From NCBI GenBank assembly GCA_035063765.1, contig JAPSFT010000001.1:195497-259496 (forward strand): a stretch of 64,000 bases of DNA, in the 5' to 3' direction. The translations under genes were made by a program, and so were the position numbers. How positions within the stretch are numbered: the stretch's first letter is position 1; each line of letters starts with the position of its first letter. This DNA comes from Deltaproteobacteria bacterium (lineage in GTDB: Bacteria > Myxococcota_A > UBA9160 > PR03). The notes beneath the pieces were generated by a model. The model was not told where the DNA came from, searched no databases, and worked only from the letters and a program-made list of their open reading frames with translations. Shown piece by piece: positions 19,718 to 43,049 of the stretch.

Positions 19718-19734
<17 letters not shown>

Positions 19735-20965
19735 GCGCCCGTCGCGCTCGCTCCTCACGTTGCTCGTGGCGGCGAGCTCGCTCGGCCTCGCGCGCGCGGC
19801 GCCGCTCGATCCGGGCGCTCCGCTCCGGCGCGTGGTCGGCCCGCCCCGCGGCGCCGCGCCGATGTCGCGCGTCGACGCGGCGCGGAGCGGCCGCGCCCCG
19901 AGCTCCTTGCCGCGCGCGCCGCGCCTCCTCTGGCGCGCCCGCGTGCAAGGCGGGCTCAGCCACGGCATCGCGGTCGACGAACGAGGTGCGATCGTGGCGG
20001 CGAGCGGCCTCGGGCAGTTGGTCCAGCTCTCACCGGGCGGCGTGCCGGAGTGGTCGGCGCGGCTCGGTCCCGGCGTGCCGCTCTGCGCCCCGGTGCTCAC
20101 CAGCGACGGCACTCGGGTCACCGTCATGAGCGGGCCGGCGCTCATCGGCGTGTGGCCGGACGGCAGACTGCGCTATCGCCGCGCGCTCGAGGTCGAGGAC
20201 GCACGACCGGTCGCGAGCCCGCTCCCGCTCGAGGACGGCAGCCTGAGCGTCGCGCTCGGACGCGTCGTAGTCCGCATCGAGCCCGACGGTTCGCTGGCGG
20301 CGCAAGCGCGCCTGAGCGAGCCTGCAGCGACGCTCCTCGCGCATCGCGGCCGCGTGCTCGTGGTCGGCGAGCGCGGCGGCGTGAGCGAGCTCCGGGCGGA
20401 GTCGACCTCGGTCGGGCTCGGGAGCTTCGGGGGTCCGATCACCGGCGGCGCTGCCCTCGTCGCCCCCGACACGCTGGTCGCGGTCGTCGACCGCCGGCGG
20501 TTGGTCGCGCTCGAGCTCACGAGCTCGCGCGAGCGGATCCTCCTCGACGACGCCGCCGGGCTCCGCGGCCCACCCGCCCTCGGCGCCGACGGAAGGCTCT
20601 GGGTCACGACCGCCGACGGCTTCGTCGTCGCGGTCGACCGCGCGGGCCGCGAGACGCGGCGCGCGCTCGTGGAGCCAGCAGCCCGGCTTCCCGCTCGAGG
20701 GCTCCCGCGCCTCGCGCTCGAGCCGCCGCCGCTCCTGGTCGATGCGGCGGGGTACGCGGCCATCGTCCGCGCGGCCGAGGACGCCGCGCTGCTCGGGCCG
20801 GACGGCAGCCTCCGCGCGGCGCCCGAGGCGAGCTGCCCGGACCCCATCGCGGTCGAGCCGTCCGGCCCGGAGCGGATGCTGGTGGCCTGCCACTCCGGGC
20901 TGCTGATGTTGGTTGGGGGCGGCGCGGTACCGAGCCCGTCGCGCGGCTCCGGCGCCGCTCAGTAG
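19718..20965 (+). CDS. Secreted PQQ-like beta-propeller protein
   Basis: A 415-residue exported protein starting at GTG 19718 inside the end of the kinase gene. A signal peptide (SLLTLLVAASSLGLARA, cleaved after about residue 27) is followed by repeated four-strand blades with W/G-rich turns such as PLCAPVLTSDGTRVTV, ALIGVWPDGRLRY and GPPALGADGRLWVTTADGFVVAVD. These resemble PQQ/WD-type propellers such as BamB, but no BAM-specific contact motif is recognised. A probable periplasmic binding partner for the kinase's outer domains. It overlaps the convergent lipoprotein gene by 7 bp at the 3' end. Confidence 0.75.
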
Positions 20966-21726
20966 CGGCGGTGGCGCCGCGCCCAGTCGAGGACCTCCGC
21001 GATGCGTGCCTCGCGCGCCGGGTCGGGCGCGCGGAGCGCGCGCGGCTTCGCGCCCGAACCCTCGACGGCGACCAGCGAGGCGTCATCGACCAGCGTGCGC
21101 GCGCCCGCGGCGGCGGCGGTCGAGACGAAGAGGCACGGCTGCTCATCCATGGGCGGCAGGACCTCCTCGTAGCGGCACCAGCCGGTCGCGTCCGGGGCCG
21201 CCTCGACCGGCAGCACGCTCGTCGAGCCGCCGAAGGCCTGATTGCACTTGGTGACGCTCACCCAGACGAGCGAGCAGTCCGGCTCGGGCGGCTTGGCCCA
21301 CAAGGTCACCGCGAGGCTCTTGCCCCGCGCCGCGGCGCCATAGCCGAGCAGGCTGGTGCCCGAGGTGAGCACCCCGCAGGTGACGCCGGAGCGACAGAGC
21401 CCGCCCGTCTCGCGCGCGAGGAGCGCCTGGCCACCCGCAGAGTACGCGATGAAGCCGTACTGACCGCTCCCGCTCGACAGCTCGAAATCGCCGTCGACCA
21501 GCAGGTTCTCGACCAGGGTGGTGCGCCCGAAGGGGTTCCGGCTCTCGACGGTGCGGAGCGGTGCGACCGCGTCGGGCGGCCGAGGCGCGTCCTCCCCCGC
21601 GTCGGCGCTCGCGTCGTTCGCTCGAGTGAGCGGCGTGACACGCGTCTCGTCGTGGCCGCAGGCGGCGCCGAGCAGGGTGCCGGCGAGCACGAGCGCGGCG
21701 TGGATGGAGCGCGCGACCCGACGCAT
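20959..21726 (-). CDS. Cys-rich lipoprotein with carbohydrate-binding-like jelly roll (copy B)
   Basis: A 255-residue lipoprotein; ATG 21726 overlaps the upstream S41 stop (ATGA). Lipobox LGAAC, then an acidic linker, then APLRTVESRNPFG and NLLVDGDFELSSG. The latter resembles the first strand of CBM4/9-type jelly rolls (N-L-x-x-G-x-F-E). Six Cys in the folded part (GLC, VTC, PDC, TKC, GWC, QPC) are all matched in the paralogue at 23795-24628, suggesting three disulfides. A basic tail ends the protein. Last gene of a four-gene operon. Ligand unknown; a sugar is inference from fold likeness only. Confidence 0.72.
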   Translation of the reverse strand: MRRVARSIHAALVLAGTLLGAACGHDETRVTPLTRANDASADAGEDAPRPPDAVAPLRTVESRNPFGRTTLVENLLVDGDFELSSGSGQYGFIAYSAGGQALLARETGGLCRSGVTCGVLTSGTSLLGYGAAARGKSLAVTLWAKPPEPDCSLVWVSVTKCNQAFGGSTSVLPVEAAPDATGWCRYEEVLPPMDEQPCLFVSTAAAAGARTLVDDASLVAVEGSGAKPRALRAPDPAREARIAEVLDWARRHRRY

Positions 21727-23798
21727 CACTTGAGCCGACTCCTCACCCATGCGAGCGCGGCCTCATAGGGAAGGTCCCGACCCTGGAGGAGCGAGCTCTG
21801 GGTGTGGACCACGAGCTCGTCCGGCTCGATCCCGTGCCCGATGAGCGGCGTGCCGTCCGAGGTGAGCGTGTCGCCGCTGGCGAGCTGCCAGCTCATGCGC
21901 GACCAATAGCCGAACTGGTAGAAGGACGAGAAGGCTCCCGCCGTCTGGTGCGGCCCGAACACGCGCACGTTCGGGGCGCCCTTCATTCCGTGCGGGAGCC
22001 AGTCGCTCGCCGAGCCGTCGCGGTGGATGATGAGCGCGACCGGCAGCTCGAGGTCCGGATCGGCGCTGCCCACCGCGTAGGTCATCGAGAGCGCGCCCTT
22101 GAAGCGCTCGAAGAGCGCGAGCCCCTCGGCGGCGTCCTCCGGCCCGTCGTAGCCAGCGACCGCCATGAACCCCGACACGCTCAGGATCTCCGACCGGCGC
22201 ACGAGCTCGGTGAGCGCCTGGGGAGCGTCCATCGTCCCGCCGTTTCCGGCACGATGATCGAGGATGACGCCGCGGGCCTGCCGGCGAAAAAACGCGGTCG
22301 ACTCGACGAGCCACGGGGTCATCATCGGGCCATAGAGCGAGTCGAAGGTCATCCCGTAGATGTGCTCGCCAGGCCCGGAGTCGACGACCAGGTCACGCCA
22401 CCTCGCGCCGCCCATGCGGTGGTTGGCGGCGCCGGGCGGCGGGTTGGCGAGGTGGTACGCCGGGCGGTTGTCGCACGACGGGATGGCGCCGCTCGCGCCG
22501 TCGCTCGCGAGCGGGATGCTCCGCACGTCGATGGTCTCGATGTGATCGAGGCAGCTCCCGGCGTCCTGGTCACAGCGGATCACGCTGAAGTTGCGAGCGA
22601 AGGTCGGGATGAGATCGCGCATCGCTTCGACCACGTCCGCGTCCACCTCCGGGTCGGACGCGACGTGATACCCGTAGTTCTGCGCCGTGAGCGAGCGCGC
22701 CCACGCGATGGGCTCGACCCCGTCGACCGCGACCAGGCGATCCCCGGCCGCGAGCCCGAGCGCGCCGGTGGAGCCCGTATACGCGACCAGCACGTCTAGC
22801 CGATCGGGCGCGCTCGGCCAGGTGCGTTGGGAGAGGTCCGCCCTGCCCTCGATGAAGCAGACCCCGAGCCGGCGCGCGCTCCGCACTGCCGAGAGCGCGA
22901 GCGAGGTCGCCGTGTGCCAGTCCTTGAGCATCCGCACGCCGTGAAAATACGCCTGCCAGTACTGCCAGGGCGTCTCCGCCGCGTGCATCGCGCCCATCCG
23001 GTCGAGCGCCGCCGGCAGGTTGCGGGTCCGCGTGAAGCGCCCCCCGAAGAACAGGCGCGCACGCGCGGCCAGGTAATCGGCGACGCTGTCCCGGTGCTCC
23101 ATGTCGGGGATCGGCGGCACGTAGCGCGCGCCCTCCTGGCAGCGCTCGGCGACGCAGAGAGCCTCCTCGCCGCACACCGGATCGAACGCGCCGAAGCAAC
23201 GCGAGCCTCCCCGGTACTGGCCCTCGCGGACCACCTCGATGGCGTCGAGGTCGACGCCGGTCCCCTCGACGCGCATCACCGCGCGCTCGAGCGCCGTCCC
23301 GGTGACGCTCACCGGGTTCGACACGAGCTCGACCCAACCGTCGCTCGTGACGCGCCCGGTCGGGAACAGATACGCCGCCTCGTCGTCCCGCTCCGCGGAC
23401 GCCGCGTAGGACATCACCGCGCGCGCGACGACGCGCGCGTGACGGACCCAAAGACGAAACCGGTACGAGGCGTTCTCGGCGGGGAGCACGAGCGTCACCT
23501 CGAACGGAGCCTGCTGCACGGACACGCGGGCGAAGCGCTCGCCGTGGAGCGCGAGCTCGTCACCAGCGCCGCCGCCGGCGACTTCGTAGCTGCACGTGCC
23601 GTCGCAGGTGATCGCGCCGGCGCCGCCCTCGGCGAGCTCGGCCTCGTCTTCGAACGACTGCGTCGCGGTCGCCTTCGCATCGAAGACGAGGCGGCCCGCG
23701 GCGTCGAAGGTGGCCGCGCGCGCCGGGGCCGCGAGCGCGAGCGCCGCGAGCCCCAGCCCGAGCGTAGCGAGCCTGGCTCGCACCGCTCCGCCGCTCAT
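21726..23798 (-). CDS. Secreted S41-type (tail-specific protease-like) protein, copy B
   Basis: 690 residues, signal peptide ending APARA. ATG 23798 overlaps the preceding stop. The N-terminal beta-sandwich part contains FPTGRVTSDGWVEL. A Cys-rich stretch (about 175-200) follows, then a PDZ-like segment, LGLAAGDRLVAVDGV, and the S41 core: GVILDHRAGNGG, PVALIIHRDGSASDWLP with the predicted nucleophile Ser in SASD, then VRVFGPHQTAGAFSS. The C-terminus IEPDELVVHTQ...AALAWVRSRL is S41-like. The Lys that pairs with Ser in Prc/CtpA is not found at its place (GPHQT), so the active site is of another S41 branch or inactive. Paralogue of 24625-26670. Confidence 0.85.
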   Translation of the reverse strand: MSGGAVRARLATLGLGLAALALAAPARAATFDAAGRLVFDAKATATQSFEDEAELAEGGAGAITCDGTCSYEVAGGGAGDELALHGERFARVSVQQAPFEVTLVLPAENASYRFRLWVRHARVVARAVMSYAASAERDDEAAYLFPTGRVTSDGWVELVSNPVSVTGTALERAVMRVEGTGVDLDAIEVVREGQYRGGSRCFGAFDPVCGEEALCVAERCQEGARYVPPIPDMEHRDSVADYLAARARLFFGGRFTRTRNLPAALDRMGAMHAAETPWQYWQAYFHGVRMLKDWHTATSLALSAVRSARRLGVCFIEGRADLSQRTWPSAPDRLDVLVAYTGSTGALGLAAGDRLVAVDGVEPIAWARSLTAQNYGYHVASDPEVDADVVEAMRDLIPTFARNFSVIRCDQDAGSCLDHIETIDVRSIPLASDGASGAIPSCDNRPAYHLANPPPGAANHRMGGARWRDLVVDSGPGEHIYGMTFDSLYGPMMTPWLVESTAFFRRQARGVILDHRAGNGGTMDAPQALTELVRRSEILSVSGFMAVAGYDGPEDAAEGLALFERFKGALSMTYAVGSADPDLELPVALIIHRDGSASDWLPHGMKGAPNVRVFGPHQTAGAFSSFYQFGYWSRMSWQLASGDTLTSDGTPLIGHGIEPDELVVHTQSSLLQGRDLPYEAALAWVRSRLK

Positions 23799-24628
23799 CG
23801 CGGGCGCCTCCGCCACGCCTCGAAGGCGCGCTCGGCGGCGTTCGGTGGCGGCTCGCGCGGCACCATCACGCGCTTCATCACCGCACGCATGGCGTCGGCT
23901 GCCCGGCGGTCTACCGGCTGCGGCGCGAGCGCGCGACGGAAGACGCGCTCCTCGGGGCTCGCCGCGCGCACCACGGCGTCGTCGACGAGCGCCTCGCCGT
24001 CGGCGAAGCGCGCCTCGACCAGCAGGCAGGTCGCGCGGCGCCGCGCACCACCGACGGCGCGGAACGCGCACCAGCCGTCCGCGTCGGGGGCGCCGTCATC
24101 GGTGAGGAGAGTGAGGTCCGGATCCGAGCGATCGCTGCACCCGAAGAGGACGACGCCCACGTCGAAGCAGTTGCCGGTGGGCGGCTTGACCCAGACGCTC
24201 GCGTACACCGGCGCGTCGCCGGGCGGCGCGACGCCGATGGCGCCGACCCGCTGCGACGGAGCGAGGTAGCCGCACTTCATCCCGCTCCGACACGCGGCGC
24301 CGATGCGGAGCTGACTGAACGTGCCGATGGGCACGAAGAGCGGTCCCGCGCCGACCCAACCAGAGGAGTCGGCGAAGGCGGTCTCCCACTCGAAATCGCC
24401 ATCCCAGAGCAGGTTGTCGCGGGCGGCCACGTCACCGAACGGGCTCCGCTCGATGATGGTGCGGAGCGGCGCCTCGGCCTCGGCGTCGCCGGCGTCGGGC
24501 CGCGGCAGGGACGCGTCCGCCCCGGCGTCACGGGAGAGCGGCGAGACCGGCGCGTCGTCGTAGTCACACGCGCCGGCGAGCGCGAGCGCGACGCACGCGG
24601 CGAGCAACCCGAGGTGCGCACGGGTCAC
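23795..24628 (-). CDS. Cys-rich lipoprotein with carbohydrate-binding-like jelly roll (copy A)
   Basis: 277 residues from GTG 24628, overlapping the upstream stop (GTGA). Lipobox ALAGAC, acidic linker, then APLRTIIERSPFG and NLLWDGDFEWE, the same order as in copy B. The six core Cys (GAAC, MKC, GNC, FGC, GWC, ATC) match copy B one for one. A C-terminal helical, basic extension is longer than in copy B. It sits between the two S41 genes, and the operon order S41-lipoprotein-S41-lipoprotein shows that the pair was duplicated as a unit. Function unknown; probably works with the adjacent protease-like protein at the cell surface. Confidence 0.72.
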   Translation of the reverse strand: MTRAHLGLLAACVALALAGACDYDDAPVSPLSRDAGADASLPRPDAGDAEAEAPLRTIIERSPFGDVAARDNLLWDGDFEWETAFADSSGWVGAGPLFVPIGTFSQLRIGAACRSGMKCGYLAPSQRVGAIGVAPPGDAPVYASVWVKPPTGNCFDVGVVLFGCSDRSDPDLTLLTDDGAPDADGWCAFRAVGGARRRATCLLVEARFADGEALVDDAVVRAASPEERVFRRALAPQPVDRRAADAMRAVMKRVMVPREPPPNAAERAFEAWRRRPR

Positions 24629-26670
24629 GGCGCGAGCTCCTGGCGCACCCACGCGAGAGCGGCGTCGTAGACGGTGTCGCGGCCGGCGAGCAGGTCCGAC
24701 TGCAGCGGTAGCACCACCACGTCGGGCGCCACGCCGGTGCCGTTCAGCGTGCGCCCGTCGGCGGCGAGCGTATCGCCGACCGCGATCGAGTAACCGAGCC
24801 CGAGCCAGTACCCGAACTGATACCGGGTGGAGAAGCCTCCCGCCGTCTCGAAGGGCGCGAAGATGCGCGCCTTCGGAGCGCCCTTGAGCCCGAGCGGCAG
24901 CCAGTCGCTCGCCGAGCCATCGAGGTGCGTGAGGAGCGCGACCGGGACGTCCGTGCGCGCGCTCGCGCTGCCGGCCACCTCGACCTCGTCCCCGAGCGCG
25001 TCGAAGAGCGCCTTGCCCTCCGCGAGGCTCGCGGGGCCCTCTTCGTCGGCGCGATCACGGAAGCGGAAGCTGTCGAGCTTCACCGGCTTTCGCACGAAGT
25101 CCCAGATCATGGCCGGCCCGAGCGAGGTACCGCCGAAGCCGGAGCGGTGATCGAGCACGACGCCGCGCGCGCGCGCGCGCCAGGTGGCGACGGCCTCGGC
25201 GAGCTGCGGCCCTACGTCCCCGGGCTCTCCTCGACCCGTCACGTAGAGCGAGCTCCACTCGAGCCCGTAGATCGCCTCGCTCGAGTCGCTCTCGAGGACG
25301 ATGCCCGAGTAGAAGCCGTCGCGCGAGTGCTCGGGCGGCGTGCCGGGCAGGTGCGAGCGCGGGCGGTTGTCACAGCTCACGTCCGCTCGAACCCCCGCAG
25401 GGACGCGCGCAATGTCTGCCACCCGGAGCGTCTCGGGCGCGCCGGCGCAGCCGCCGCTCGCCGCGTCGCAGCGCAGCACCTCGAAGCGCTCGGCGAATCT
25501 CGCGATGAGCCCGGGGAGCCGCGCGACGTCCTCGGCGTGGGTCTCGTGGTTCGACGCGGTCCAGAAACCATCGTCGACACCGATGAGCGAGCGCGCCCAC
25601 TCGACCGGGTGCTTGCCGTCCACGCTCACCAGGCGATCGCCCGCGTGGAGCCCGAGCGCGTTCACGGTGCCGACGTGCGACACGAGCACGTCGAGGCGGC
25701 TCGGGTCGGGAGACGTGACGCCGCTCGAGGCGTCCGCCACGCCCTCGATGAAGCAGACCGAGATCGGCTTCGGCTGCTCGAGCACGAAGCCGGCGATGCC
25801 GGTGCTCTGGGTGTGCCAGTCGTGGAGCCGGTGGACGGCGACCTCGAAATGCCTCCAGAAGCTCCAGGCGTCGGCGGCCGAGCGCATCGCGTCGAGCTCG
25901 GCGAGCGCGCTCGGCAAGTCCAGGCGGCGGTTCCGGAAAGGGCCGAAGAGGAGCCGGAAGCGGCCCTGAAGGTACGCGACGAGATCGTCGCGCTCGGCAT
26001 CCGCCGGTAGCCTCGGGACCCTCGGCGACATCGACCGGCACTCACCCCACTGGCAGGCGCGGCCCGCGCCGCAGGCTCGATCGTCGATCGCGCCGCGGCA
26101 CGCCGCGCTCGGCGCCGCCGCGCCGTCCGGCACGAACTCGACGGCGTCCGCCTCGGCGCCCGTCGGCGAGAAGAGCCCCACCTCTACCAGCTTCGCGCGC
26201 GACGAGTCGAAGGAGAAGCCGCGCGTCTCGAGCTCGTACCAGCCGTCGCTCGTCATGCGCCCGGTGGGGTAGAGCGAGCCGAACTCGTCGACCCGCCCTT
26301 CCCCGTAGCTCGCCTCGACGGTCGCGATGAGCTCCCCGCGCGCCCACACGGTCACTCGATACGAGCTCGGGCTCGCGGGGAGCGCGAGCGGGATACTTAC
26401 CCCGGCGAAGCGCGGCACCGCGAGCACGTGGCTCCCCTCGAGCGCGGCCTGCGATTCAGCGATGTCGAGCGGCGTCGGGCCGCCGGCGTCTCCGGCGTCC
26501 GGCTCGCCCGCGTCGGGGAGCGCGGGCTCGCCCGGCTCGAAGCCGAGCGTCCAGGCCGCCTTCGCGGAGAAGGTCGCCCGACCAGCGGCGTCGAACTCGG
26601 TCGCGCTGGCCTGCGCCGCCGCGAGCGCGAGCGAGAGCGCGAGCGCGGCGGCGAGGAGCGAGCGAGCCAT
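24625..26670 (-). CDS. Secreted S41-type (tail-specific protease-like) protein, copy A
   Basis: 681 residues, ATG 26670, signal peptide ending AQASA. First gene of the four-gene operon. Same layout as copy B: EFDAAGRATFSAKA opening, PTGRMTSDGWYELE, a Cys-rich link, FLLFGPFRNR-like helices, PDZ-like LGLHAGDRLVSVDGK, core GVVLDHRSGFGG, nucleophile block VALLTHLDGSASDWLP, ARIFAPFETAGGFS, and the end GVAPDVVVLP...AALAWVRQEL. The CtpA-type Lys is again missing. Shared motifs run through the whole length, so the two copies diverged from a full-length duplication. Upstream starts would add 43 residues and disrupt the signal. Shares a 143-bp divergent intergenic region with erpA. Confidence 0.85.
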   Translation of the reverse strand: MARSLLAAALALSLALAAAQASATEFDAAGRATFSAKAAWTLGFEPGEPALPDAGEPDAGDAGGPTPLDIAESQAALEGSHVLAVPRFAGVSIPLALPASPSSYRVTVWARGELIATVEASYGEGRVDEFGSLYPTGRMTSDGWYELETRGFSFDSSRAKLVEVGLFSPTGAEADAVEFVPDGAAAPSAACRGAIDDRACGAGRACQWGECRSMSPRVPRLPADAERDDLVAYLQGRFRLLFGPFRNRRLDLPSALAELDAMRSAADAWSFWRHFEVAVHRLHDWHTQSTGIAGFVLEQPKPISVCFIEGVADASSGVTSPDPSRLDVLVSHVGTVNALGLHAGDRLVSVDGKHPVEWARSLIGVDDGFWTASNHETHAEDVARLPGLIARFAERFEVLRCDAASGGCAGAPETLRVADIARVPAGVRADVSCDNRPRSHLPGTPPEHSRDGFYSGIVLESDSSEAIYGLEWSSLYVTGRGEPGDVGPQLAEAVATWRARARGVVLDHRSGFGGTSLGPAMIWDFVRKPVKLDSFRFRDRADEEGPASLAEGKALFDALGDEVEVAGSASARTDVPVALLTHLDGSASDWLPLGLKGAPKARIFAPFETAGGFSTRYQFGYWLGLGYSIAVGDTLAADGRTLNGTGVAPDVVVLPLQSDLLAGRDTVYDAALAWVRQELAP

Positions 26671-41165: not shown

Positions 41166-43049
41166 ATGACTACCCAATCGGAAACCGTGCAGTATAGGCC
41201 GGGCGCGCCAGCGAGCGGCGAGCCCCGAAAGCAGCTGAAGGGCGCCGTGGTGCGCTTCGTCGGCGACTCGGGGGACGGCATGCAGGTCACCGGAGCGCAG
41301 TTCACCTCGGCGGCGGCGCTCGCTGGCAACGATCTGGCGACCTTCCCGGATTTCCCCGCGGAGATCCGCGCGCCCGCCGGCACGACCTACGGGGTCTCGG
41401 GCTTCCAGATCAACTTCGCCTCGCAGGACGTCTTCACGCCCGGTGACGCGCCGGACGTCCTCGTGGCGATGAACCCGGCCGCGCTCAAGACCAACCTCTC
41501 GCGGCTGGTGCGCGGTGGGCTGCTCATCGTCAACAGCGGGGCCTTCTCCTCCGCGAACTTGAAGAAGGCCGGCTACGACACGAATCCGCTCGAGGACGGC
41601 TCGCTCGACGGCATCGAGACGCTCGCCATCGACATCACCAAGAACACGGTCGCGGCGGTCAAGGAGGCTGGGATCAGCACCAAGGAGGCCAACCGCTGCA
41701 AGAACTTCTGGACCTTGGGGCTGATGTTCTGGATCTACGCGCGCCCGCTCGAGCCGACCATCAAGTGGCTCGAGGGCAAGTACCAGAAGAGCCCCGAGAT
41801 CGCCCTGGCGAACGTGCTCGCGCTGAAGGCGGGGCACGCCTACGGAGAGACGGCGGAGGTCTCGCACTACCGCTACGAGGTGCCGCCGGCCACGGTGCCG
41901 AAGGGTACCTACCGCAACATCGGCGGTAACCAGGCGACGGCGTGGGGTCTCATCGCCGCGACGCAGCTCTCGGGCCTCGAGATGGTGCTCGGGACCTATC
42001 CCATCACCCCCGCGAGCGACATCCTCCACGAGCTCAGCCGCCACAAGCATTTCGGCGTGACGACCATCCAGGCCGAGGATGAAATCGCGGCGGTCTGCGC
42101 GGCGATCGGCGCCTCGTACGCCGGCAAGCTCGCGGTCACCACCACCAGCGGGCCGGGCCTCGCGCTGAAGACCGAGGCCATCGGGCTCGCGATCGCCACC
42201 GAGCTCCCGCTGGTCATCATCAACGTGCAGCGCGGCGGCCCGAGCACGGGCCTGCCGACCAAGACCGAGCAGGCGGACCTCCTGCAGGCCGTCTACGGGA
42301 GGAACAGCGAGGCGCCCCTCTGCGTGCTCGCCGCTTCGTCGCCGGGCAACTGCTTCGACATGGCCATCGAGGCCGCGCGGCTCGCGCTCAAGTACATGAC
42401 GCCCGTGATCCTGCTCACCGATGGCTACGTCGCCAACGGCGCCGAGCCCTGGCGTATCCCCGACGTCACCACGCTCCCCAAGATCGACGTGAAATTCCGC
42501 ACCGATCCGGAGGGCTTCCAGCCCTTCGCGCGCGACCCGGTGACGCTCGCGCGAAACTGGGCGATCCCGGGCACCCCGGGGCTCACCCATCGAATCGGCG
42601 GTCTCGAGCGCGACTACCACACGGGCCACGTCTCCTATGACCCGGCCAACCACGATCTCATGTGCCGCACGCGCGCCAAGAAGATCGCGGGCATCGCCCA
42701 TGACATCCCCGAGCTCGCGATCGAGACCGGCGACGAGCGAGGTAAGCTCCTGGTGCTCGGCTGGGGCTCGACCTATGGCGCGATCCGAACCGCCGTGACT
42801 CGCTGCCGCGAGCAGGGGCTCCCGGTGTCACACGCCCAACTCAACTACCTGAACCCGTTCCCGAAGAACCTGGGCGAGGTGCTCGGCCGCTTCGAGCGCG
42901 TGCTCATCCCCGAGCTGAACCTGGGTCAGCTCTCGAAGCTCGTGCGGAGCGAGTACCTGCGCGAGGTCGATAGCTTCACCAAGTGCGAGGGGCAGCCCTT
43001 CCGCACCGACGAGCTCGAAGACCGCATCCGTCAGACCTTGGAGAGCTGA
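41166..43049 (+). CDS. korA: 2-oxoglutarate (2-oxoacid):ferredoxin oxidoreductase, fused gamma-alpha subunit
   Basis: 627 residues. With KorB it decarboxylates 2-oxoglutarate to succinyl-CoA and reduces ferredoxin. The N-terminal gamma part (about 25-210) has GAVVRFVGDSGDGMQVTGAQFTSAAALAGNDL. The alpha part begins about 240 with GNQATAWGLIAATQLSGLEMVLGTYPITPASDILHELS, then QAEDEIAAVCAAIGASYAGKLAVTTTSGPG and INVQRGGPSTGLPTKTEQADLLQAVYGRN. The fusion and TKTEQ-x-DL match the two-subunit KorAB type of aerobes such as Mycobacterium. Ends 5 bp before korB. Confidence 0.95.
   Translation: MTTQSETVQYRPGAPASGEPRKQLKGAVVRFVGDSGDGMQVTGAQFTSAAALAGNDLATFPDFPAEIRAPAGTTYGVSGFQINFASQDVFTPGDAPDVLVAMNPAALKTNLSRLVRGGLLIVNSGAFSSANLKKAGYDTNPLEDGSLDGIETLAIDITKNTVAAVKEAGISTKEANRCKNFWTLGLMFWIYARPLEPTIKWLEGKYQKSPEIALANVLALKAGHAYGETAEVSHYRYEVPPATVPKGTYRNIGGNQATAWGLIAATQLSGLEMVLGTYPITPASDILHELSRHKHFGVTTIQAEDEIAAVCAAIGASYAGKLAVTTTSGPGLALKTEAIGLAIATELPLVIINVQRGGPSTGLPTKTEQADLLQAVYGRNSEAPLCVLAASSPGNCFDMAIEAARLALKYMTPVILLTDGYVANGAEPWRIPDVTTLPKIDVKFRTDPEGFQPFARDPVTLARNWAIPGTPGLTHRIGGLERDYHTGHVSYDPANHDLMCRTRAKKIAGIAHDIPELAIETGDERGKLLVLGWGSTYGAIRTAVTRCREQGLPVSHAQLNYLNPFPKNLGEVLGRFERVLIPELNLGQLSKLVRSEYLREVDSFTKCEGQPFRTDELEDRIRQTLES

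Follow-up and report, generated by a model that had tools for sequence, protein, structure and literature searches.

Why should a protease gene and a lipoprotein gene, overlapping each other, occur twice in a row on the same strand? This question is raised by a stretch of 64,000 nucleotides (the window: contig JAPSFT010000001.1 of the assembly GCA_035063765.1, named Deltaproteobacteria bacterium, positions 195,497 to 259,496), in which four minus-strand genes at 20959-26670 follow each other in the order S41-A, Lip-A, S41-B, and Lip-B. An earlier note, made from this DNA alone, had proposed that an S41 protease-like protein and a lipoprotein were duplicated here as one unit and work together. 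The gene order was borne out, each gene overlapping the next by 4 bp (the last one by 1 bp with an ATG start of Lip-B), and so was the likeness of the copies, which extends over their full length: 276 of 675 residues (41%, E 2e-140) are identical between S41-A and S41-B, and 86 of 241 (36%, E 1e-29) between Lip-A and Lip-B. The two proteases match PF03572 with 26.6 and 25.0 bits, barely over the Pfam cut-off of 24, and neither lipoprotein reached the cut-off of a Pfam or NCBIfam family. The search for both genes did not retrieve any further copy from the same assembly. As described below, the unit, duplicated with both copies kept, is indicative of a protein-cutting system of two parts that has not yet been described.

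The pairing proved to be far wider than the window shows. A public search covering a single genome for each species (GTDB 220), queried with an alignment, retrieved 56 loci, unlike a query with one protein sequence alone, which gave no match. According to their titles, these loci belong to Myxococcota or to old-style "Deltaproteobacteria" bins, a few being titled just "bacterium" or "proteobacterium". They harbor 75 S41 open reading frames (ORFs), three of which are cut at a contig end (the second ones of L072 and L092, and that of L098); all the remaining 72 have a lipoprotein ORF directly downstream. The S41 and lipoprotein ORFs overlap by 4 bp in 60 of these 72 pairs, and a simple lipobox pattern is present in 68 of the 72 lipoproteins, two of which are themselves cut (L085 and L088). 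Moreover, in a sample of 377 Myxococcota genomes, the S41 gene was found in 16 and the lipoprotein gene in 12; by their coordinates, all 18 lipoprotein matches adjoin S41 matches, and the five distant S41 genes of this sample (two in G242 and one each in G235, G253, and G052) are each followed by a lipoprotein-like ORF.

Either gene regularly occurring alone, the refuting condition of the earlier note, would speak against a joint function, and such orphans were looked for in 108 Polyangiaceae genomes, searched separately for the S41 protein and for the lipoprotein. The S41 gene was retrieved from 44 of them, in 81 rows, 77 of which scored at least 170 bits. These 77 are followed by a core-type lipoprotein (57), by a divergent one recognized by reading the DNA (15 rows, 14 genes), or are cut at a contig end (5), so that no intact S41 gene of this score lacks a lipoprotein in the 108 genomes. 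The other four rows (50-63 bits) represent S41 genes of the ordinary kind, and the two testable ones have no lipoprotein; the remaining two were left out (G410:C17 lies at a contig end, and G411:C395, 50 bits, was not read). In the reverse direction, 56 of the 58 lipoprotein rows with at least 100 bits come after an S41 gene and two lie at contig ends; as for the weaker ones, a 41-bit row stands beside an S41 gene and a 27-bit row does not, the latter looking on reading like a different lipoprotein. The adjacency test leaves out the 15 weakest of the 75 lipoprotein rows (24.2 bits or less), which span the signal peptide and linker only. With no intact orphan of either kind among the 72 public pairs and the 108 Polyangiaceae genomes, the S41 gene and the lipoprotein gene behave as an obligate two-gene module. 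This lends support to the idea that the two proteins work together, and we infer that they do so in physical contact.

The history of the copies agrees with the proposed duplication of the unit as a pair. Two S41 ORFs are present in 19 of the 56 public loci. In the S41 tree (68 rows), all 16 downstream copies of the core group, including that of the window, fall in one clade of 26 rows, and 14 of the 17 upstream copies in another clade of 16 (L062, L067, and L089 being outside both); the lipoprotein tree (48 core rows) splits likewise, 24|24 with a support of 97/96, all 17 upstream copies standing against all 15 downstream ones. The A and B copies of the 15 tandem loci are about equally distant everywhere (36-45% identity for the S41 proteins and 27-33% for the lipoproteins), which suggests that the duplication is old and was not homogenized. 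These trees and distances make the A and B pairs paralogues of ancient origin. Furthermore, loci with a single pair carry either a complete A pair (e.g., L090) or a complete B pair (e.g., L061), which implies that losses concerned whole pairs rather than single genes; the nearest placements of the S41-A and S41-B genes of the window are with these same two loci, L090 and L061, respectively. The distant loci L100, L108, and L109 also have two S41-lipoprotein pairs each, probably from a separate duplication, as read for L100 and L108 from the midpoint-rooted S41 tree. The strict pairing, the overlap, and the loss of both genes together suggest that one protein is hardly useful in the absence of its partner.

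The model of S41-B, built with AlphaFold2 on 68 sequences (mean predicted local distance difference test score, pLDDT, 92.7; predicted template modeling score 0.91), gave a sharper meaning to "S41 protease-like". Residues 229-690 match S41 structures (4ghn with Z 24.8, 4l8k with 20.4, CPAF with 19.4, and CtpA/CtpB with about 15-17), and CPAF is the first Foldseek match of the model (E 8.6e-15). Together with the PF03572 match and Ser596, found in 68 of the 68 sequences of the family alignment, these values place the protein in the S41 family with a full predicted fold. The N-terminal residues 39-193 were compared by VIA-align with carbohydrate-binding modules (CBMs), namely CBM22, CBM16, and related chains, giving Z of about 10.4-10.7 over 126-140 residues, with a root-mean-square deviation (rmsd) of 2.9-3.7. 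The PDZ-like segment remains under the cut-off for PDZ_6 (E 0.018-0.071), with a profile match to the PDZ of RseP (E about 0.002). Four Cys residues between the N-domain and the S41 part (201, 209, 215, and 220) are invariant (68/68), as are Cys 314, 409, and 442, and this would fit an oxidizing compartment.

The conservation of Ser596 and His295 is of the CPAF type. Asp599 is likewise invariant, and Asp293 is present in 62 of the 68 sequences. Ser596 aligns by profile with the Ser of the D-F-S motif of CPAF, and His295 with the CPAF His only by the rough register of the aligned ranges; the active site reported for CPAF consists of His105, Ser499, and Glu558 (PMC8787135). Candidates for the third catalytic residue, corresponding to Glu558, are Asp660 (66/68) and Asp643 (64/68), from sequence only. 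The Ser-Lys dyad of S41A members (Prc, CtpA, and CtpB) was not found in the protease of the module: its Lys presumably would come just after the T-x-G motif, and position 622, following T619-x-G621, is A, G, S, or L in all 68 sequences. The protease therefore probably acts, judging from these residues, by a Ser-His mechanism as in CPAF and not by Ser-Lys as in CtpA and Prc.

As for the lipoprotein, the Lip-B model (AlphaFold2 on 52 sequences, mean pLDDT 86.3) begins with a signal peptide and its lipobox, continues through a linker of poor order to a beta-sandwich (about 68-226), and ends in a C-terminal helix. The predicted sandwich resembles CBM4, CBM16, CBM61, and CBM22 modules (Z about 10-12, about 12 for CBM4/16). 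Lip-A and Lip-B each have the lipobox Cys plus six more, the NLL-x-DGDFE strand, and the APLRT...PFG linker (Lip-A has a further Cys at residue 12, within the signal peptide). The six Cys residues noted previously are thus correct for the two proteins of the window and do not hold as a family trait, as four of them are invariant across the 52 core lipoproteins (Cys111, Cys117, Cys151, and Cys184), Cys161 occurs in 23 of 52, and the sixth lies outside this count. The lipobox Cys23, Arg58, Asp78, Gly114, and Asp214 are also found in 52/52, and Gly67, which with Arg58 belongs to the linker motif RT..R.PFG, in 50/52. We take the NLLxDGDFE and D214 positions to be the usual structural-calcium site of such domains and not a known sugar site. 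The 20 distant lipoproteins have a total of one or two Cys residues each, and most keep the R-T...NL..D..F motif; profile comparison with the core ones by hhalign gave a probability of homology of 98.3% (95.6% on the domain alone).

The two ends of the mature lipoprotein differ in charge: on average, the 35 residues next to the lipid Cys carry an acidic charge (-2.9), and the 30 at the C-terminal end a basic one, with a mean net charge of +4.2 and 53 of 72 at +3 or more (615 called genes, including those of the module, gave a mean of +0.4 and 24% at +3 or more). This tail is often rich in Pro and varies widely in sequence and length; that of Lip-B in the window is short and basic.

The lipoprotein and the N-domain of the protease share the same predicted fold and have a weak profile similarity, with an hhalign probability of 51% and E 1.5e-4, controls with the reversed profile and with the catalytic part giving 0.1%. 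This fold similarity suggests homology between the two CBM-like domains. Matches of the lipoprotein profile within S41 ORFs were discarded as proof of it, being partly circular owing to the iterated profile; without iteration the best E was 0.035.

Among known systems, to our knowledge, few protease-lipoprotein partnerships have been described. NlpI-Prc and LbcA-CtpA control cell-wall enzymes, and CPAF, a chlamydial secreted S41-type protease, has no lipoprotein partner that we know of. In NlpI-Prc of E. coli and LbcA-CtpA of P. aeruginosa, an S41 protease is bound and activated by its lipoprotein, or supplied by it with substrates (PMC11021448 and PMC8764530, respectively). The module likewise combines an extracytoplasmic S41 protease with a lipoprotein, and the gene linkage (72/72) would fit a dedicated partner. 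However, NlpI and LbcA are tetratricopeptide repeat (TPR) proteins, and no TPR fold was found in the Lip-B model, in which a beta-sandwich is predicted and helices occur just in the signal peptide and at the C-terminus. Prc and CtpA use Ser-Lys (PMC11021448), whereas the protease of the module has no Lys in T-x-G-x and an invariant His. Also unlike those systems, the genes of the module are adjacent and mostly overlapping, and its protease has an extra CBM-like domain.

CPAF resembles S41-B over 385 residues, with the Ser aligned with Ser596, at only about 12% identity and without the CBM-like N-domain. The best structural match of the catalytic part comes from S41 proteins of Bacteroides/Parabacteroides (4ghn, 4l8k, and 8vcb; for 4ghn, 361 residues with an rmsd of 3.9); 4l8k shares the D-x-H-T and end motifs, and the solved chains, of 307-388 residues, lack the CBM-like and four-Cys parts. 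CBM modules have the same fold as the lipoprotein domain and the N-domain of the protease (Z about 10.6 for the latter); the likeness lies in the predicted fold, as the 52 lipoproteins, which have four core Cys residues, matched no CBM family among the 12 Pfam families listed at E up to 1. A described system with this S41-lipoprotein pairing was not found in open-licence papers (a search that does not cover subscription papers and preprints), in agreement with the earlier note, which knew of no named system having it; S41 proteases with unrelated lipoprotein partners are those mentioned above.

On these grounds, we propose that the lipoprotein serves its own secreted protease as an anchor or activator, much as in NlpI-Prc and LbcA-CtpA and with unrelated parts, a reading by analogy that we hold tentatively, at slightly short of an even chance. 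The S41-type serine protease would be secreted, and the lipid-anchored partner, carrying a CBM-like sandwich as its single folded domain on a long acidic linker, would hold it at the envelope and help to activate it or bring it substrate, the role of NlpI for Prc or of LbcA for CtpA. The lipid anchor of the one and the plain signal peptide of the other would make the envelope their meeting place, and the tandem A and B pairs might be two parallel protease-partner complexes of diverged specificity. The physical complex, the activation or tethering, the envelope or surface location, and the substrate are what we infer. Several points weigh against this proposal. The strict linkage fits a substrate or an inhibitor role equally well; the lipoprotein, in its predicted fold, looks like a CBM rather than a TPR adaptor; the acid of the catalytic triad is a choice between candidates given by sequence; and 64 of the 108 Polyangiaceae genomes gave no match to the module, which is thus not essential to this family. 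Moreover, mirror-tree correlations in the 15 tandem loci, tried as a sign of cognate partners, do not separate cognate (0.86 and 0.74) from swapped pairs (0.75 and 0.81), and common descent could account for the congruence of the trees.

The lipoprotein might instead be the dedicated substrate of the protease, its RT..R.PFG linker or basic, Pro-rich tail being clipped to release or mature a CBM-like surface protein. S41 proteases often act on tails, one substrate per protease would account for the strict pairing, and both the conserved linker motif and the basic charge of the tail are consistent with this. The very variable sequence and length of the tail argue against it, as does the known LbcA-CtpA, with at least five substrates (PMC8764530), and we regard the substrate role as unlikely. 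We give it more credit than an inhibitor or immunity protein shielding the producer from its own secreted protease, which appears improbable: the order of enzyme then partner, the overlap, the whole-pair loss, and the patchy presence (44/108) recall effector-immunity pairs, but the same order, the old A and B copies through many Polyangiaceae, and the shared synteny look vertical, among the families recurring nearby none was recognized as a secretion or toxin gene, and the signal peptide of the protease looks ordinary.

The CBM-like domains open a further route, in which the two proteins would not touch and both would bind the same surface or extracellular glycan, as a co-expressed kit against glycoproteins or prey envelopes. 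The resemblance of both domains to CBM4/16/22 and their weak profile match are in favor; yet this fold is common and often does not bind sugars, the conserved residues lie at the presumed calcium site, and co-expression by itself seldom yields strict linkage, which makes a kit of this kind distinctly unlikely. Least probable of all, with only a slight chance, would be a non-catalytic S41 protein forming a binding or transport device with the lipoprotein. IRBP modules, non-catalytic binders with an S41-like fold, are among the fold matches (Z about 14), and the Lys of S41A is absent; nevertheless, the invariance of Ser596, His295, and Asp599 over a deep divergence would be unlikely without catalysis. 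Returning to the anchoring or activating partner, a bolder form of it would have a CPAF-like Ser-His protease and its lipid-anchored partner meet through related CBM-fold domains or a common surface glycan, limiting proteolysis to a sugar-marked surface, with A and B as two machines of different specificity and the whole as a new class of envelope proteolysis in Myxococcota; as a complete picture, this is rather unlikely, if somewhat less so than the substrate role.

Myxobacteria are known for predation and a complex surface, and the module looks like a second, structurally unrelated solution to the protease-lipoprotein partnership, with near-perfect genetic linkage. The complete genome of Minicystis rosea DSM 24000 (L071) harbors both pairs, so the partnership is open to direct testing, and the natural A and B duplicates represent a built-in swap experiment on specificity. 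The features of the locus are collected in Table 1.

Table 1. Coordinates of the genes, overlaps, and residues of the two S41-lipoprotein pairs in the window.
Feature	Position	Strand	Basis or remark
S41-A, secreted S41-type protease, 681 aa	24625..26670	-	PF03572 match; comparison with S41-B
S41-A parts: signal peptide, CBM-like N-domain, 4-Cys linker, PDZ-like segment, S41 core			
S41-A His286, counterpart of S41-B His295	25813..25815	-	Alignment of copies
S41-A Ser586, counterpart of S41-B Ser596	24913..24915	-	Alignment of copies
S41-A/Lip-A stop/start overlap, 4 bp, GTGA	24625..24628	-	
Lip-A, partner lipoprotein, 277 aa	23795..24628	-	Comparison with Lip-B; A-side of lipoprotein tree
Lip-A lipobox LAGAC, Cys21	24566-24568	-	
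Lip-A/S41-B overlap, 4 bp, ATGA	23795..23798	-	Connects both pairs
S41-B, second protease, 690 aa	21726..23798	-	PF03572 match; model md13f1bd57ed8
S41-B CBM-like beta-sandwich, residues 39-193, protease N-terminus	23220..23684	-	Predicted model
S41-B His295, D-x-H-T motif, candidate catalytic base	22914..22916	-	68/68
S41-B Ser596, D-G-S-A-S-D, candidate nucleophile	22011..22013	-	68/68
S41-B/Lip-B overlap, 4 bp, GTGA (only 1 bp with ATG start)	21726..21729	-	
Lip-B, second lipoprotein, 255-256 aa (start GTG 21729 or ATG 21726)	20959..21729	-	Comparison with Lip-A; model m175aaf737dc4
Lip-B lipobox Cys	21658-21660	-	

None of the five other genomes of the family to which the window is assigned yielded the module. 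Relatives of about 34 kb of the window (10.4 to 44.1 kb) lie together on a single contig of a Polyangiaceae genome (G105), with the order largely kept and one local inversion; in order and identity, the contig of the window is closer to G105 than to its assigned family. An oxidoreductase of the window is 75-76% identical to that of G105 and 56-57% to that of a genome of the same genus (G001), and a second copy of the gene at 41166-43049, on contig C15 of the same assembly, is 84% identical to that of G001. With the G105-like segment and the G001-like copy, a recent horizontal gain of the module by the genome of the window was rejected; on these identities, the contig is probably misbinned, and the owner of the module is best taken as belonging to the Polyangiaceae or standing close to them.

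Concerning the neighboring genes, no conserved third gene general to the module was found in the 56 public loci. A plus-strand gene (19718-20965) converges with Lip-B in the window, overlapping it by 7 bp at 20959-20965. In nine loci of one subgroup (L068, L070, L072, L073, L076, L077, L091, L092, and L095), the module is directly preceded by a gene which we take to be a lipoyl(octanoyl) transferase, LipB, and a small Cys-rich lipoprotein-like gene lies directly downstream in 8 of the 56 loci, of the same subgroup (L066, L068, L070, L073, L076, L077, L091, and L095).

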